The position numbers and the translations under genes were made by a program. A stretch of 64,000 nt of DNA, taken from Isoptericola halotolerans. Lineage in GTDB: Bacteria; Actinomycetota; Actinomycetes; Actinomycetales; Cellulomonadaceae. The stretch covers positions 209,930 to 273,929 of the forward strand of contig NZ_JABEZU010000004.1 in the NCBI RefSeq assembly GCF_013149785.1, in the 5' to 3' direction. Of the stretch, positions 5,087 through 27,991 are shown one piece after another (positions within the stretch are counted from its first letter, which is position 1; each line of letters begins with the position of its first letter). Under the pieces are notes generated by a model. It saw only the letters and a list, made by a program, of their open reading frames with translations, had not been told where the DNA came from and searched no databases.

Positions 5087-6424
5087 TCAGTCCTCGAGCA
5101 GGGCGTTGATCGAGTCGTTCGCGGCGGTGAGCGACGAGGCGTCGGTGTTGCCGAGGTAGATGTCCTCCAGCGCCACCGAGGCGATGGCGTTGACCTCGCC
5201 GGAGTGCAGGGTGATGGGGGCCAGGAAGGTCCGGCCCTCCTCCTCGTAGCTGAAGAACGCGGAGACGTCCCAGCCCTTCTCGTCGAACGCGGCCAGGGCG
5301 TTCTCGGCAGACCCGGGGATCGCCGGGAAGACGACGGCGTGCTCCGCGACGACGTCCTGGCACTCGCTGGAGCCGAGGTACTTCACCCACTCCCAGGCGG
5401 CCGCCTGCTTCGAGGAGGAGGCGCTGATGGAGTCGGCGACCCCGTTGAAGATCGAGGCGCGCTCGCCGGTCGGGCCGACGGGCCCGGGTGCGATGCCGAC
5501 GTCGACGCCGTCCAGCTCCATGAACGAGCCGGTGGCCCAGGAGCCGTTCGTGCCCATGGCGACCTTGCCGGAGCCGAGCTGCGTCGGGGTCTCGTCGGAG
5601 AAGACGCCGGCGGAGGGCGCATAGCCCTTGTCGGCCAGGCCGTAGAACCAGTCGATCGCCTCCTGGAGCTGCGGGTCGTCGAACCGGTACTGCGTGCCCC
5701 ACGGGTTGCTGTCGAGGTAGTCCCAGTCGAGGGAGCCGGTGAAGTTGGCCCACTGCATCTGCCCGGTCTCCTCGAAGTTCGGGTTGATGCCCATCCCGTA
5801 CACCGCGACGCTGGAGGCGTCGAAGCCCTCCTCGTCACCGCGCACCCCGTTGGTGTCGACGGTGAGACGTGCCACGACGTCCTCGAACGTCCCGCCGTCC
5901 TGGGGGTTCCAGTCGGCCGTCCAGAGGTCCTCGGCAGTGAGCCCGGCGTCGGCCAGCATCTCGGTGTTGTAGAAGAAGGCGGTGGTGTCCCAGTCCTTGG
6001 GCAGCCCGTAGGTGGAGCCGTCCACGTACTGCCAGGGCTCGAGGAGGCCGTCGGCGTAGACACCGGTGTCGAACGCGTCGGCCTGGATCATCTCGTCCAG
6101 CGCGACGACCTGCCCCTGGGCGGCGAACTCGCCGTACTTGGACAGGTGGTCGACGAAGACGTCGGGGCCGGACCCGCCGACGAACGAGGCGGTGAGCTTG
6201 GTCCAGTAGTCGTCCCAGGCGAACTGCTCGATCTTGACCGAGACGTCCCCGGTCTCGGCGAAGTCCTCGGCGCACGCCTGGTAGGCGGGCAGCTGGTTGG
6301 AGTCCCAGAGCCAGTAGGTGATCTCGCCGGAGGCCTCGTCCCCGGCGGCGCCGTCGCCGCCGGAGCAGGCGCCGAGCGCCAGGACCAAGGATCCTGCCAC
6401 GGCGAGGTGTGCGGTCTTTCGCAT
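5087..6424 (-). CDS. Sugar ABC transporter substrate-binding lipoprotein
   Basis: The 445-residue protein begins MRKTAHLAVAGSLVLALGACSG, a lipoprotein signal with lipobox LGAC. The mature part is a family 1 type extracellular solute-binding protein (ITYWLWDSNQ at the start, W..PQDGGTFEDV, and GTNGSW in the second lobe). It captures an oligosaccharide for the two permeases encoded just upstream (6487-7446 and 7454-8392). The ATG at 6424 follows GAAAGGGA at good spacing. An in-frame extension upstream is the tail of another reading frame and lacks a signal. The ligand is unknown; the neighbouring GH36 suggests alpha-galactosides. Confidence 0.88.
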   Translation of the reverse strand: MRKTAHLAVAGSLVLALGACSGGDGAAGDEASGEITYWLWDSNQLPAYQACAEDFAETGDVSVKIEQFAWDDYWTKLTASFVGGSGPDVFVDHLSKYGEFAAQGQVVALDEMIQADAFDTGVYADGLLEPWQYVDGSTYGLPKDWDTTAFFYNTEMLADAGLTAEDLWTADWNPQDGGTFEDVVARLTVDTNGVRGDEEGFDASSVAVYGMGINPNFEETGQMQWANFTGSLDWDYLDSNPWGTQYRFDDPQLQEAIDWFYGLADKGYAPSAGVFSDETPTQLGSGKVAMGTNGSWATGSFMELDGVDVGIAPGPVGPTGERASIFNGVADSISASSSKQAAAWEWVKYLGSSECQDVVAEHAVVFPAIPGSAENALAAFDEKGWDVSAFFSYEEEGRTFLAPITLHSGEVNAIASVALEDIYLGNTDASSLTAANDSINALLED

Positions 6425-22509: not shown

Positions 22510-22539
22510 GCTTGCGCGGCCTTGCGAGAATGGGAGGCC

Positions 22540-25500
22540 GTGAGCACCGAGACCTCATCCACCCCGCAGCCCGCCGACGACGGCGGCGCACGCGGCGACC
22601 GCCGGGACCGGCGCGGCGGTGAGCAGCACGCCGGGAAGGACGGCGCCCGCCGCCGTCGCGGCCGCGGCGGCGGCGGGAAGTCGAGCCAGAGCAGGAACGG
22701 ACGCGGCCCGGCGCGGGTGAGCCGCGACCAGCTCGACCGGGCAGCGGCAGCGCGTGCCGCCGTCGTCGTCCCCGACATCACCTACCCCGAGCAGCTCCCC
22801 GTCTCCGCACGGCGCGAGGACATCGCCGCCGCCATCGAGAAGCACCAGGTCGTGGTGGTCGCCGGCGAGACCGGCTCGGGCAAGACGACACAGCTGCCGA
22901 AGATCCTGCTGGACCTCGGCCGAGGGCGGGCCGGCCAGATCGGGCACACGCAGCCGCGGCGGATCGCGGCACGGTCGGTCGCCGAGCGGGTCGCCGAAGA
23001 ACTGGGGACGGAGCTGGGCGGCGTCGTCGGCTACCAGGTGCGGTTCACCGACACCTCCAGCGCGGACACGCTGGTCAAGGTCATGACCGACGGCATCCTG
23101 CTCGCGCAGATCCAGCGCGACCCGGAGCTGCTCGCCTACGACACGATCATCATCGACGAGGCGCACGAGCGGTCGCTCAACATCGACTTCCTGCTCGGGT
23201 ACCTGTCGCGGCTGCTGCCGCGCCGTCCCGACCTCAAGCTCATCGTCACCTCCGCGACGATCGACTCCGAACGGTTCGCGGCGCACTTCTCGCCCGCGCA
23301 CCTGGCGGAGGTCGGCGGTGCGCCGGCCGCCGTCGTCGACGTCCTGCCCGACCACGCGCCGGTCATCGAGGTGACCGGACGCACCTACCCGGTCGAGATC
23401 CGCTACCGCCCGCTGTCGCCGGACAGCGACCCGGACGCCCCGGCGAAGAAGAAGGGTGAGGAGAAGGACCTCGTCACCGGCATCGTCGAGGCCTGCGACG
23501 AGCTCATGCGCGAGGGCCCCGGCGACATCCTCGTGTTCCTCTCCGGGGAGCGCGAGATCCACGACGCCGCCGACGCCCTCGAGGGCCACCTCAAGGAACG
23601 CGCCCGCGACCCCAAGCACCCCCAGCACGTGGAGATCCTCCCGCTGTACTCGCGGCTGTCCGCCGCCGAGCAGCACCGCGTCTTCCAGCAGCACTCCTCG
23701 CGCCGGATCGTGCTGTCCACGAACGTCGCCGAGACGTCGCTGACCGTGCCCGGCATCCACTACGTCGTCGACCCCGGCACCGCGCGCATCTCCCGCTACT
23801 CCAAGGCCACCAAGGTCCAGCGGCTGCCGATCGAGCCCGTCAGCCAGGCCAGCGCCAACCAGCGCTCCGGCCGCTCCGGCCGCGTGGCCGACGGCGTCGC
23901 GATCCGCCTCTACGCCGAGGACGACTTCGAGAGCCGGCCAGAGTTCACCGAGCCCGAGATCCTGCGCACCTCGCTCGCGTCGGTGCTGCTGCAGATGATC
24001 TCCGTCGGCGTCGTGGAGACGCCCGACGACGTCGCGAAGTTCCCGTTCGTCGAGCCCCCGGACACGCGGGCCGTGCGTGACGGCGTCCAGCTCCTCACCG
24101 AGCTCGGCGCCCTCGCCCGCCCGCAGCGCGACGGCTCCGCGACGCAGACCCGGCTCACCGACGTCGGCCGCACGCTCGCGCAGCTCCCCATGGACCCGCG
24201 GCTCGCCCGCATGATCATCGAGGGCTCACGGCGCGGGGTCGCCCGCGAGGTCTCGATCATCGCGGCGGCGCTGTCGATCCAGGACCCGCGCGAACGCCCG
24301 GCCGAGGCCCGGGAGCAGGCGGACCAGCAGCACGCACGGTTCCGCGACCCGTCGTCGGACTTCCTCGCCTACCTCAACCTGTGGGAGTACCTGCGCGAGC
24401 AGCAGCACGCGATGGGGTCCTCGGCGTTCCGCCGGCTGTGCAAGAGCGAGTACATCAACTTCCTGCGGGTCCGCGAGTGGCAGGACGTCGTCGCGCAGAT
24501 CCGGCAGATGGGCAAGCCCCTCGGCATCGATCTCTCCTACCAGCCGACCACCGGCGGGCCGTCAGCGGCGGGGTCCGGTGCGCCGCCGTCGAGCCGTAGC
24601 GGAGGGCCCCCTGGGGCCCGTGAGCGAGGCAGCGCACCGGACCCCGCCGCTGACGACCATCGACAGGAGTGGGACGGCGACACCATCCACCGCTCGCTGC
24701 TCGCCGGGCTGCTCTCCCAGCTCGGCATGCAGGAGACCAACGAGGTCAAGGCGTCCTCCGTCGCCCACCTGCGCGGCGAGGCACGCGCCCGCGCGCTGCG
24801 GCAGGCCGCCAAGCGCGCCCGCAACGAGTACCTCGGGGCCCGCGGCGCCCGTTTCGCCATCTTCCCGGGCTCGCCGCTGAGCAAGAAGCCACCGGCCTGG
24901 ATCATGGCCGGTGAGCTCGTGGAGACCTCCCGCCTGTGGGCCCGCGACGTCGCCCGCATCCAGCCCGAGTGGGCCGAGGAGCTCGCCGGCGGCCTCGCCC
25001 GGCGCACCTACGCCGACCCGCACTGGTCCACCAAGCAGGGCGCGGCCATGGCCACGGAGAAGGTGCTGCTGTACGGCGTGCCGATCGTCGCCGACCGCCC
25101 GGTCCTGTTCGCGAAGGTCGACCCGGAGGCCGCCCGGGAGATGTTCGTCCGGCACGCCCTCGTCGAGGGGAAGTGGACCACCCACCACCGGTTCTTCGCC
25201 GAGAACCGCCGCCTGCTCGCCGAGGCCGAGGAGCTCGAGGCCCGCTCCCGGCAGCGTGGCCTCATGGCCAGCGAGGACGACCTCTTCGCGTTCTACGACG
25301 AACGCGTGCCCGCGTCGGTGGTCAGCGCCCGGCACTTCGACACCTGGTGGAAGAAGGCCCAGCACGACGACCCCGACCTGCTGACCCTCACGCTCGACCA
25401 GCTCGTCGATTCTGCCGACACCGCTGCGCTTCCCGAGATGTTCCCCGAGACGTGGACGCAGGGTGAGATCACCCTGCCGCTCACCTACCAGTTCCAGCCC

Positions 25501-27243
25501 GGCACCGACGCCGACGGCGTCACCGTCCACGTCCCGCTGTCGATCCTCAACCGCGTGAGCCCCAGCGGGTTCGACTGGATGGTCCCCGGCCTGCTCGACG
25601 AGCTCTGCGTCGCCACCATCCGCTCGCTGCCCAAGACGGTGCGGCGCGAGCTCGTGCCCGCGCCCGACGTCGGTGCCGCCGTCGCCCGCTGGTTGCGCGA
25701 GAACACCCCGCAGTGGTCGGACATGGCCCGGGCCGGCGACATGGCCTCCCCGTTCCACGTCGAGTTCTCGCGCGCCGTGCGTGAGCTGCGCGACGTCGTC
25801 ATCCCCGACGAGGTCTGGGACGCCGAGCGCGTCGAACGGCTGCCGGCTCACCTGCGCATGACGTTCCGGGTCGAAGAGCCCTCCGGTGCCGGCGCGTCGG
25901 GTGCGCCCGATGCCCCGGGCGACGGGCGGGGGCGCAAGGGCTCGAAGAAGAAGCGGTCGACGCGACCCGCTCCCGTCCCGCTCGACGAGTCCAAGGACCT
26001 GCTGTCGCTGCAGAAGCGGCTGGCCCCGCAGGCCGAGGCGGCCGTGCGGGCGGCCGTGAAGGGGGCGGTCGGGGTCGCGCTCGAGGAGGCGGCGCGGGCT
26101 GCTTCTGGTTCGGGGCCGGGCTCGGGGCCGTCGGGCGCGCAGGTCGGTGCGCCGCCTCGCTCACGGGCCCCGGGGGGCCCTCCGCTACGGCTTGACGGCG
26201 GCACACCGACCTCCGTGCCCGACGGCGGTGCGTCCGGTGCCGCTGGCGCATCCACTGACGCTGGGGTTGCGTCGAGCGGATCCGGCGCTGTGGTGGCGGA
26301 GGAGTCGGGGCTGACGGGGTGGCCCGCGTCGTTGGTCGGTGGGGTGCTGCCTCGGGTGGTGTCGACCGACCTCGGGGGCGGGGTCGTGGTGCAGGGGTAT
26401 CCGGCGCTGGTCGAGGAGCCGGGCGCGAAGGGTGCGCCGTCGGTGGCGCTGCGCGTGCTCGCCGACGCGGCCGCGCAGGATGCGACCCACGAGGCCGGCG
26501 TGCGGCGGCTGCTGCTGTCCGAGACGGCGCTGGCGACCCCTCGCATCACCTCGCGGTGGACGTCCAAGCAGTCGCTGACGCTCGCGGCGGCGCCGTACCG
26601 GAACACCGAGGCGCTCGTCGCGGACCTTCAGCTGGCCGCGGTGGTGGCGCTGACCAGCCCGGACGGGGACAAGGCCCCCGGCACGCCGACCGGCGGACCG
26701 GTGGCTGTACAGGTACGGGACGCCGAGTCGTACAAGGAAGCCGTCGCGTTCGTGCGGCAGCACCTGGAGGACGAGGTGCACCGCGTCGTGGGGCACGTCG
26801 TCGCCGCCCTCAGCGCGTGGCGCACCGTCGAGAACGAGGTGCGCTCGTCGTCGTCCCTCGCGCTGCTCAACACGCTGCAGGACATCCGCGACCACGTGGC
26901 CGGGCTGATCCACACCGGGTTCGTCTCGGCGACCCCGCCGCGCCGGGTGCCGCACCTCGTGCGCTACCTGCGGGCGGCGTCGTACCGGCTGGAGAAGGCA
27001 CAGTCGAACCCGCACCGCGATGCCGAGCTCGCCTGGAAGGTGCACGACGTCGCCGACGCGTACGAGCGGGCCCGGACCGCGTACGCGTCCGGTGCGGCCG
27101 ACCCGGCGCGCGCCGCCGAGCTCGCCGAGGTGCGCTGGCTGCTCGAGGAGCTGCGCGTGTCGTTGTTCGCCCAGCAGCTCGGCACCGACGGCGCCGTCAG
27201 CGAGAAGCGGATCCGCAAGATCCTGACCCCCGGCGGCTGGTGA
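22540..27243 (+). CDS. hrpA: ATP-dependent RNA helicase HrpA
   Basis: The 1567-residue DEAH-box helicase has a basic disordered N-terminus (to about residue 55), Walker A GETGSGKT (about 109-116), DEAH (about 207-210), SAT, the NVAETSLT and QRSGRSGR motifs of RecA domain 2, the HA2/OB region and the long DUF3418 C-terminus found in HrpA. It probably unwinds RNA at stalled ribosomes, as in E. coli. It is longer than the roughly 1300-residue E. coli protein, partly because two palindromic DNA elements (24560-24655 and 26141-26212) are read in frame. They encode disordered Gly/Pro/Arg-rich stretches at residues about 674-706 and 1201-1225. The GTG at 22540 follows GGGAGG. Confidence 0.95.
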   Translation: MSTETSSTPQPADDGGARGDRRDRRGGEQHAGKDGARRRRGRGGGGKSSQSRNGRGPARVSRDQLDRAAAARAAVVVPDITYPEQLPVSARREDIAAAIEKHQVVVVAGETGSGKTTQLPKILLDLGRGRAGQIGHTQPRRIAARSVAERVAEELGTELGGVVGYQVRFTDTSSADTLVKVMTDGILLAQIQRDPELLAYDTIIIDEAHERSLNIDFLLGYLSRLLPRRPDLKLIVTSATIDSERFAAHFSPAHLAEVGGAPAAVVDVLPDHAPVIEVTGRTYPVEIRYRPLSPDSDPDAPAKKKGEEKDLVTGIVEACDELMREGPGDILVFLSGEREIHDAADALEGHLKERARDPKHPQHVEILPLYSRLSAAEQHRVFQQHSSRRIVLSTNVAETSLTVPGIHYVVDPGTARISRYSKATKVQRLPIEPVSQASANQRSGRSGRVADGVAIRLYAEDDFESRPEFTEPEILRTSLASVLLQMISVGVVETPDDVAKFPFVEPPDTRAVRDGVQLLTELGALARPQRDGSATQTRLTDVGRTLAQLPMDPRLARMIIEGSRRGVAREVSIIAAALSIQDPRERPAEAREQADQQHARFRDPSSDFLAYLNLWEYLREQQHAMGSSAFRRLCKSEYINFLRVREWQDVVAQIRQMGKPLGIDLSYQPTTGGPSAAGSGAPPSSRSGGPPGARERGSAPDPAADDHRQEWDGDTIHRSLLAGLLSQLGMQETNEVKASSVAHLRGEARARALRQAAKRARNEYLGARGARFAIFPGSPLSKKPPAWIMAGELVETSRLWARDVARIQPEWAEELAGGLARRTYADPHWSTKQGAAMATEKVLLYGVPIVADRPVLFAKVDPEAAREMFVRHALVEGKWTTHHRFFAENRRLLAEAEELEARSRQRGLMASEDDLFAFYDERVPASVVSARHFDTWWKKAQHDDPDLLTLTLDQLVDSADTAALPEMFPETWTQGEITLPLTYQFQPGTDADGVTVHVPLSILNRVSPSGFDWMVPGLLDELCVATIRSLPKTVRRELVPAPDVGAAVARWLRENTPQWSDMARAGDMASPFHVEFSRAVRELRDVVIPDEVWDAERVERLPAHLRMTFRVEEPSGAGASGAPDAPGDGRGRKGSKKKRSTRPAPVPLDESKDLLSLQKRLAPQAEAAVRAAVKGAVGVALEEAARAASGSGPGSGPSGAQVGAPPRSRAPGGPPLRLDGGTPTSVPDGGASGAAGASTDAGVASSGSGAVVAEESGLTGWPASLVGGVLPRVVSTDLGGGVVVQGYPALVEEPGAKGAPSVALRVLADAAAQDATHEAGVRRLLLSETALATPRITSRWTSKQSLTLAAAPYRNTEALVADLQLAAVVALTSPDGDKAPGTPTGGPVAVQVRDAESYKEAVAFVRQHLEDEVHRVVGHVVAALSAWRTVENEVRSSSSLALLNTLQDIRDHVAGLIHTGFVSATPPRRVPHLVRYLRAASYRLEKAQSNPHRDAELAWKVHDVADAYERARTAYASGAADPARAAELAEVRWLLEELRVSLFAQQLGTDGAVSEKRIRKILTPGGW
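24560..24655. repeat. Palindromic element inserted in frame in hrpA, copy 1
   Basis: Perfect 24-bp terminal inverted repeats (24560-24583 against 24632-24655, starting CGTCAGCGGCGGGGTCCGGT) enclose a GC-rich centre. A 62-bp core (24577-24638) recurs in reverse orientation at 26146-26207 with only four differences. The element is stop-free in the hrpA frame. Confidence 0.85.
26141..26212. repeat. Palindromic element inserted in frame in hrpA, copy 2 (inverted)
   Basis: A 15-bp inverted repeat with one mismatch (AGGTCGGTGCGCCGC at 26141 against 26198-26212) flanks the inverse of the 62-bp core of copy 1 (58 of 62 positions identical). Although reversed, it is again read through without a stop, giving a different peptide. 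Confidence 0.85.
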
Positions 27244-27275
27244 ACGGGATCCCCCGCTCCGATCGGCAGCTTCGA

Positions 27276-27307
27276 CTCCGGTCGGTCGCTCGAGTGACCG
27301 ACCGGAG
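27276..27307 (+). terminator. Hairpin terminator after hrpA
   Basis: CTCCGGTCGGTC (27276-27287) pairs exactly with GACCGACCGGAG (27296-27307) around a GCTCGAGT loop. It lies 33 bp after the hrpA stop and just before the convergent 27329 gene, so it can serve both. Confidence 0.75.
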
Positions 27308-27328
27308 CTGGACGTGCCGAGCAGTCGT

Positions 27329-27991
27329 CTACCCAGCGGGCTCCAGCTCGCGCGGGGGCACGACCGCGGCGTCACGGACCACCCGGTCGCCCAGCGGCGC
27401 CTCCAGCTCGACGACGAACGGCGTCGGCGGGTTGGACGGGCACGTGAAGTTACCCTCTTGCAGCGTGACACCGATGACCAGGTCGATCGCATCATCGGTC
27501 GCCGCCAGCCTGTCGAGCACGATGCGTCCCTCGGCGTCCTGACCGCTGTTGCACGCGCGCTCGGTGACCAGCAGGTGGATCTCGGTCGCGGCAGGATCGA
27601 GCGGGTGGTCGGGATCCAGGGTGAGGTCCGCCTGACCGTACGCATCGGTCGGTTCCGCCGGCCCGGAGCGCAGCGCACAGCTGTTCGCCGAGGTCAGCAT
27701 CCATCGTGGGCCGTCGACCCTCTCGATCGTGAGGAACTCGTGGGTACGGACGTCGCCGCCGCCGAGATCCTCCGGCTCGTCCAGCTCGCGCAGCAGCGCG
27801 ACACGCTCCGGGGACTCCGTGACGATCGCCCACTCGGCGGGGTCGATCGGCGGGACCTCCGCGCCGTCCAGCGCGGCCCTGGCCTCGTCCCTCAGGTCGA
27901 TCGCGGTCCGGAGGTCATCGATCGACTCGACCACGCCGGGCGGGACGGGCTCGCCGTCGCAGGTGAGCTCCTCGAACCGGTCCGCAGGCAC
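27329..27991 (-). CDS. Hypothetical protein resembling the mature part of an exported protein
   Basis: The 220-residue protein from a GTG at 27991 has two Cys pairs (LTCDGE near the start, NSCALRSG and ERACNSG in the middle, NFTCPSN near the end), suggesting disulphides outside the cytoplasm, but no signal peptide. The frame upstream of the GTG continues without Met or Val start through SGEARKAPAAPGPT, a linker-like stretch of the kind seen after a lipobox, and then hits a stop beside the 44-bp palindrome at 28050-28093. It may therefore be a gene decapitated by that palindrome. The family is not recognised. Confidence 0.5.
   Translation of the reverse strand: MPADRFEELTCDGEPVPPGVVESIDDLRTAIDLRDEARAALDGAEVPPIDPAEWAIVTESPERVALLRELDEPEDLGGGDVRTHEFLTIERVDGPRWMLTSANSCALRSGPAEPTDAYGQADLTLDPDHPLDPAATEIHLLVTERACNSGQDAEGRIVLDRLAATDDAIDLVIGVTLQEGNFTCPSNPPTPFVVELEAPLGDRVVRDAAVVPPRELEPAG

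Follow-up and report, generated by a model that had tools for sequence, protein, structure and literature searches.

The two inserts in the hrpA gene of Isoptericola halotolerans probably belong to a family of non-autonomous, REP/RPE-like hairpins of Isoptericola and related genera, here called F1, whose members would have a role at gene 3' ends, insert rarely and be remodelled by template switching. The inserts share a covarying fold with dispersed copies elsewhere and are placed in frame in disordered linkers. Species differ in the presence, absence and orientation of the elements, and the core is conserved at the nucleotide level. The window analysed was a stretch of 64,000 nucleotides from one I. 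halotolerans genome (G000), one of the 18 Isoptericola genomes compared.

hrpA encodes a DEAH-box ATP-dependent RNA helicase of 1573 amino acids in an open frame at 22522..27243 on the + strand of the window, and hosts both F1 elements. Its product scored 1528.6 bits against the NCBIfam model DEAH_box_HrpA (TIGR01967; cut-off 722.75) and contains the Pfam domains helicase, HA2, OB and DUF3418. The element at site 1 (24556..24662, + strand, forward) lies in the HA2-OB interdomain linker, and that at site 2 (26122..26228, - strand, reverse) in a linker within the DUF3418 region; they scored 92.3 and 81.2 bits, respectively, against our covariance model R1. A sequence-only reading of this DNA had described a 62-bp core occurring twice, once reversed, with 58 identical positions. 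Recomputing gave the same result, with 58 of 62 positions agreeing in opposite orientation between the cores at 24577..24638 (+ strand) and 26146..26207 (- strand). That reading had also given each core its own inverted flank. The long inverted arms are real and differ by copy, but they are part of the element, forming the variable outer stem that the examined family members have. At site 1 the outer arms are complementary at 27 of 28 pairs, including a perfect run of 24, and at site 2 at 27 of 30. As had been claimed, the hrpA frame is free of stops in both orientations. The 39-nt core pattern, with up to three mismatches, was found at two places in the window and at none in 100 dinucleotide-preserving shuffles, and the RNA fold z-scores were -9.3 and -9.5 for the + and - strands of site 1 and -5.0 for the - strand of site 2.

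In the protein, the site 1 insert corresponds to residues 680-712, flanked by Pfam HA2_C (558-617) and OB_NTP_bind (722-823), and the site 2 insert to residues 1202-1235, enclosed by DUF3418 (838-1568). When residues 560-1330 were modelled with AlphaFold2 (mean pLDDT 73.8), both inserts (fragment positions 121-153 and 643-676) fell almost wholly in coil predicted with pLDDT below 50 (117-154, 638-651 and 653-715), in agreement with the disorder expected for them from the sequence. Twenty nucleotides past the hrpA stop, at 27263-27320 of the window, adjacent 29-nt inverted arms (79% complementary) precede the converging gene at 27329-27991 (- strand); they look like hrpA's own 3' hairpin rather than F1.

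F1 elements have three parts: an outer stem whose sequence varies (median 30 bp), a conserved asymmetric loop of about 40 nt and an inner hairpin. The loop carries the conserved motifs GTC..., and GAAG[T/C]GGAG / GTGA[A/G]CG. The covariance model has 108 positions and 37 consensus pairs. Of these pairs, 30 have changed on both sides in one or more of 58 sequences, and a pair within the conserved loop covaries from T-A to C-G (36 and 22 of the 58 sequences). GTAG and CGTC, the tetranucleotides at the foot of REP palindromes, lie at loop positions in F1 and in G+C-rich DNA, GTAG in the core of hrpA type and CGTC in many of the cores. Model R1 gave 261 matches in the genus by the tool's own count, which may hold some double readings; all 18 genomes, partly drafts, were hit, with 2-58 matches each and 13 in G000. 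Across the family, 38 of 200 genomes had matches with an E-value of 1e-6 or better, 18 of them from the own genus, and of the 25 genera sampled 7 were hit. The search of the genome and its relatives that had been proposed for the core thus reveals a dispersed family. Plain sequence queries were more restricted. In the genome of the window, a 141-nt query hit nothing but the two hrpA copies and a reverse reading of the first; among 38 relatives it matched 22, from 5 of 21 genera. When up to three mismatches were allowed, the strict core occurred at 12 places in 8 of the 18 genus genomes, 11 of them in hrpA and one in a partial tandem array in G009. In this array (L117, about 5620-5830) two F1 copies without the 3' arm are followed by a complete one at a spacing of 73-74 nt, as if made by slippage. 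The hrpA-type core also occurred in intergenic copies of some genomes of genus g7 (L189, L193, L197).

A known RNA family was considered and rejected, since no Rfam family matched at the gathering score in 7 sources, and E-value mode likewise gave none over the elements. Next to one F1 copy in G012, a Guanidine-II riboswitch match (L163:1639-1687) scored 32.6 bits against a gathering score of 32. Scanning 31 of 80 loci of hrpA relatives with R1 gave no match outside the window. The site 1 core found no match in plasmids or phages, an intergenic F1 copy used as query found none in plasmids, and viral contigs held no exact pattern match for F1. Our literature search found no paper describing F1, as judged mostly from listings.

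Most copies lie outside genes. Of 155 matches at loci taken from top-scoring lists, 114 were used, after removal of one duplicate (L192) and of 40 weak readings on the opposite strand. A codon-position heuristic placed 109 of these 114 copies, from 100 loci, between genes and 5 in open frames, including one (L117:8810) that was scored as within an ORF yet lies near a doubtful start. With the same heuristic gene calls, 60 of the 109 intergenic copies were between convergent genes, 45 between tandem genes (23 + 22) and 1 between divergent genes, while 3 had one neighbour unknown. Relative to the neighbouring 3' end, 68 of 108 copies were antisense and 40 sense; among the 74 copies lying at most 150 nt from a 3' end the split was 61 to 13 (p ~1e-8 if the copies are independent). 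Several convergent regions had two F1 copies, one at each gene end. A transcribed hairpin at these places could act as a transcript-end signal, in termination, processing or as a decay barrier, and such a role would preserve the F1 core. The 3' location, the convergent gene pairs and the syntenic copies could also be read as ordinary 3'-end terminators that were copied into hrpA on one occasion and then spread through recombination, in which case F1 would not be a separate element family. We consider this quite unlikely. The asymmetric loop is conserved and covaries, in-frame target genes are several and in several genera, and the hrpA genes of two genera hold different subfamilies. Moreover, in the 59 antisense copies at 3' ends no U-tract follows the element: T has a frequency of 0.78 at the first position and 0.47 at the second, with no T run thereafter, the stem being followed by TT and then G+C-rich DNA, which speaks against F1 as an ordinary intrinsic terminator.

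Many intergenic copies occupy orthologous places, so that ongoing movement of F1 is shown by site polymorphism within genes only, a point against the explanation we prefer. The comparison to Rickettsia palindromic elements (RPEs) made from the sequence thus needs qualifying: 109 of the 114 examined copies are intergenic 3'-end hairpins, many at the same place in several species, so that most of F1 is long-lived rather than freshly selfish. The comparison itself is supported by the dispersed family, by empty sites in hrpA and by other genes struck in frame. In our preferred explanation copies would occasionally enter new sites, and the survivors would be the insertions that keep the frame in tolerant linkers.

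Site occupancy in hrpA differed between the species. Site 1 holds F1 in 3 of the 18 genus genomes (forward in G000, reverse in G009 and G012) and site 2 in 8 (reverse in G000, G002, G008, G011, G012, G016 and G017, forward in G009); for this survey, G007 site 2 was taken from the parent contig L021 and G005 loci with identical linkers were counted once. In G005, contigs L114 and L115 give the same hrpA linker peptides, by duplication or assembly redundancy. Each site is thus occupied in both orientations across genomes, which bears out the idea that coding DNA tolerates the element on both strands. In the hrpA tree, G000 clusters with G008 and G011, and G009 with G012. As G008 and G011, the closest to G000, have an empty site 1, either G000 gained its element there separately or G008 and G011 lost theirs. 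Site 2 is flipped between the sister species G009 and G012. The site 1 linkers are too diverged between genomes to reveal a target duplication. Beyond hrpA, the linker of an alpha/beta-hydrolase::AMP-ligase fusion (Pfam Abhydrolase_1 and AMP-binding) contains F1 in four genomes, G004, G011 and G012 and, with the element flipped, G008. None of the 13 F1 matches of G000 falls in this fusion gene; by the heuristic, 11 are intergenic and 2 lie in hrpA. In other genera, a TM0106-family nuclease/helicase carried F1 in three genomes (L191, L202 and L206, with L202 identified).

The same inserts at the same residues in distant genera had been named as the result that would mark an old protein feature. 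This was half borne out, as G023 and G149, which cluster with Promicromonospora in the hrpA tree, have F1 at hrpA site 2. The copy is, however, of a different subfamily and in a different frame, with ADAFTGPRGPSTSG where APPRSRAPGGPPLRLDGG is otherwise found, and this indicates a separate insertion and not an old peptide. That the inserts are peptides retained for their amino-acid sequence is in general highly improbable, even though eight related species have site 2 occupied, seven of them with a similar peptide. The flip in G009 at site 2 and the other frame in G023 and G149 give a wholly different peptide with the DNA core unchanged, the nearest relatives have an empty site 1, and both inserts are predicted to lie in low-confidence coil. 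We rejected the old protein module on account of the flips and frame differences.

Two further hairpin families were found in the same linkers. F2 is a 46-bp palindrome, GTTGTCAG-N30-CTGACAAC, present at hrpA site 1 exactly in G004 and with changes in G014 and G001. The exact pattern occurred at 75 places in 7 of the 18 genus genomes (G001, G003-G006, G013, G014), with none for the reversed control and none in the genome of the window. In the loci read (L277-L329), with overlaps counted once, 18 of 65 distinct places were in open frames, 2 of them (L317, L320) at doubtful ORF starts; the remaining examined copies in ORFs were stop-free and mostly encoded a 17-aa ELS...DNS peptide. The host genes encode uroporphyrinogen decarboxylase, P-type ATPase (twice), biotin carboxylases, molybdopterin oxidoreductases and others. 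F2 is often protein-coding, as are RPEs, and is the clearest RPE-like family in this study. F3 has a perfect but variable stem of 15-18 bp enclosing a 66-71 nt core, and was found at hrpA site 1 in G005 and G013 and, in reverse, at site 2 in G013, G014 and G015 (L272-L276; both orientations). Beyond hrpA, a 102-nt F3 query found two partial copies in G013. The comparison of F2 and F3 linkers omitted one linker that contained N.

By our reading, 14 of the 18 genus genomes have F1, F2 or F3 in an hrpA linker. With three families in the two linkers, the hairpins might be kept for a role in the mRNA of hrpA, where they could give feedback on a helicase that itself encounters structured RNA and ribosomes, with several families recruited to the same place. 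Two further observations favour this. The 40-nt site 2 core was 92.5-100% identical in nine species comparisons, far above the fourfold sites of hrpA there (56.8-78.0%), and Streptomyces HrpA associates with ribosomes according to a passage of PMC7157823. We nevertheless regard such a role as unlikely, since four genomes (G003, G006, G007 and G010) have no family member in either linker, the F1 core is equally conserved outside hrpA, and F2 is also in many unrelated genes, so that hrpA may simply be a tolerant target; the hrpA linkers were also inspected more closely than others. A wider form of the idea, in which the F1 core would be a selected nucleic-acid signal even in coding DNA, and the hrpA linkers a convergent docking place for F1, F2 and F3 where an mRNA hairpin senses the helicase's own activity, seems to us decidedly doubtful.

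Our preferred explanation, rare insertion of F1 hairpins followed by template switching, draws on the way the copies change. Over 112 copies (2 of the 114 could not be parsed), 3254 of 3351 outer pairs were Watson-Crick, 48 GU, 18 AC and 31 other. Orthologous copies retained the core while both stem arms changed jointly. In 21 chosen orthologous comparisons of 26 pairs each (18 between intergenic copies and 3, which overlap, in hrpA; left aside, mostly as too diverged, were groups g7, g16, g19 and g20 and some third members), 444 pairs were the same. In 63 both partners had changed and still paired, in 7 both had changed and no longer paired, and in 32 a single partner had changed. The orientation was the same in 43 and different in 12 orthologous comparisons, which overlap. 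Three of the 12 are in the fusion gene; the other 9, intergenic, may be different copies where each gene end has one, and an orientation flip can alternatively be a second insertion. In yeast, template switching was reported to homogenise the arms of inverted repeats and to invert their spacers (PMC8604942). The coupled arms and spacer inversion of F1 would match what replication template switching predicts. Switching of the polymerase between the inverted arms would preserve complementarity while the arm sequence drifts, and would sometimes invert the spacer. Spacer inversion in place is thereby a possible source of the opposite orientations at one site, and with them of the opposite orientation of the two hrpA elements. 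Selection on RNA pairing could also cause the coupling of the arms. GU exceeded AC at the stem positions that were not Watson-Crick (48 vs 18), an excess that a pure DNA mechanism would not predict and that leaves room for such selection.

F1 can be compared with several known systems. RPEs (Ogata et al. 2000, 2002, as cited through PMC2229807 and PMC3733652) are likewise stem-loop repeats of about 100 nt found both between genes and in frame within conserved genes, and proteins with an RPE work on around the insert, as the F1 hosts presumably do. F1 has the palindromic stem-loop of about 100-150 nt typical of RPEs (a 108-position model) and in-frame insertions with empty-site orthologs (hrpA sites 1 and 2 and the hydrolase::ligase fusion). 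The hosts are distant and the sequences presumably unrelated; F1 differs further in its conserved internal loop, its copy-variable stem and its location mostly at gene 3' ends. GTAG/CGTC REPs and BIMEs are hairpins downstream of genes, mainly convergent or tandem ones, with some intragenic copies, including hits in repair and helicase genes, according to PMC3733652, a paper whose main text does not mention "Actinobacteria". F1 shares with REPs this placement near 3' ends (60 convergent and 45 tandem of 109, against 1 divergent).

F1 resembles the REPs described in PMC3733652 in its size and hairpin form, in lying at 3' ends and in having a few copies within genes, and might be a REP family mobilised by a RAYT (Y1 transposase). 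This is very unlikely. The outer stem sequence of F1 is not fixed, unlike that of RAYT-moved REPs, and Y1_Tnp (PF01797) was found in none of the 18 genus genomes, with the control positive in 5 of 14 well-known genomes. We rejected a RAYT/REP origin on this absence, and the reading could return only if a divergent Y1 enzyme escaped detection or if one was present in the past and has since been lost. That no mobility enzyme was identified for F1 also counts against the explanation we prefer.

ERIC/RU, NEMIS and other MITE-like repeats are small, non-autonomous and at times fused in frame (PMC2229807), and they differ from F1 in their fixed terminal inverted repeats. Template-switch remodelling in yeast also combines arm homogenisation with spacer inversion within genes; in PMC8604942 it concerns scattered native inverted repeats, whereas with F1 it would act on a repeat family. 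By analogy, F1 appears to work like RPEs and intragenic REPs. The earlier expectation of something new for the group is supported, although intragenic palindromes are already known from other bacteria, as PMC3733652 and PMC2229807 describe. New with F1 is an actinobacterial element, structured and apparently flipped in place, in which the core is conserved and the stem free.

Textbooks treat protein-coding palindromes as a curiosity of Rickettsia and some other bacteria. Isoptericola are free-living, G+C-rich soil actinobacteria. The series of 18 Isoptericola genomes makes filled, empty and flipped sites comparable in one gene. It allows the evolution of hairpin arms through template switching to be tested directly and the entry of repeats into proteins to be studied, for which hrpA is a new place. 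The series can also test for an RNA-level signal kept within a coding region in either orientation.
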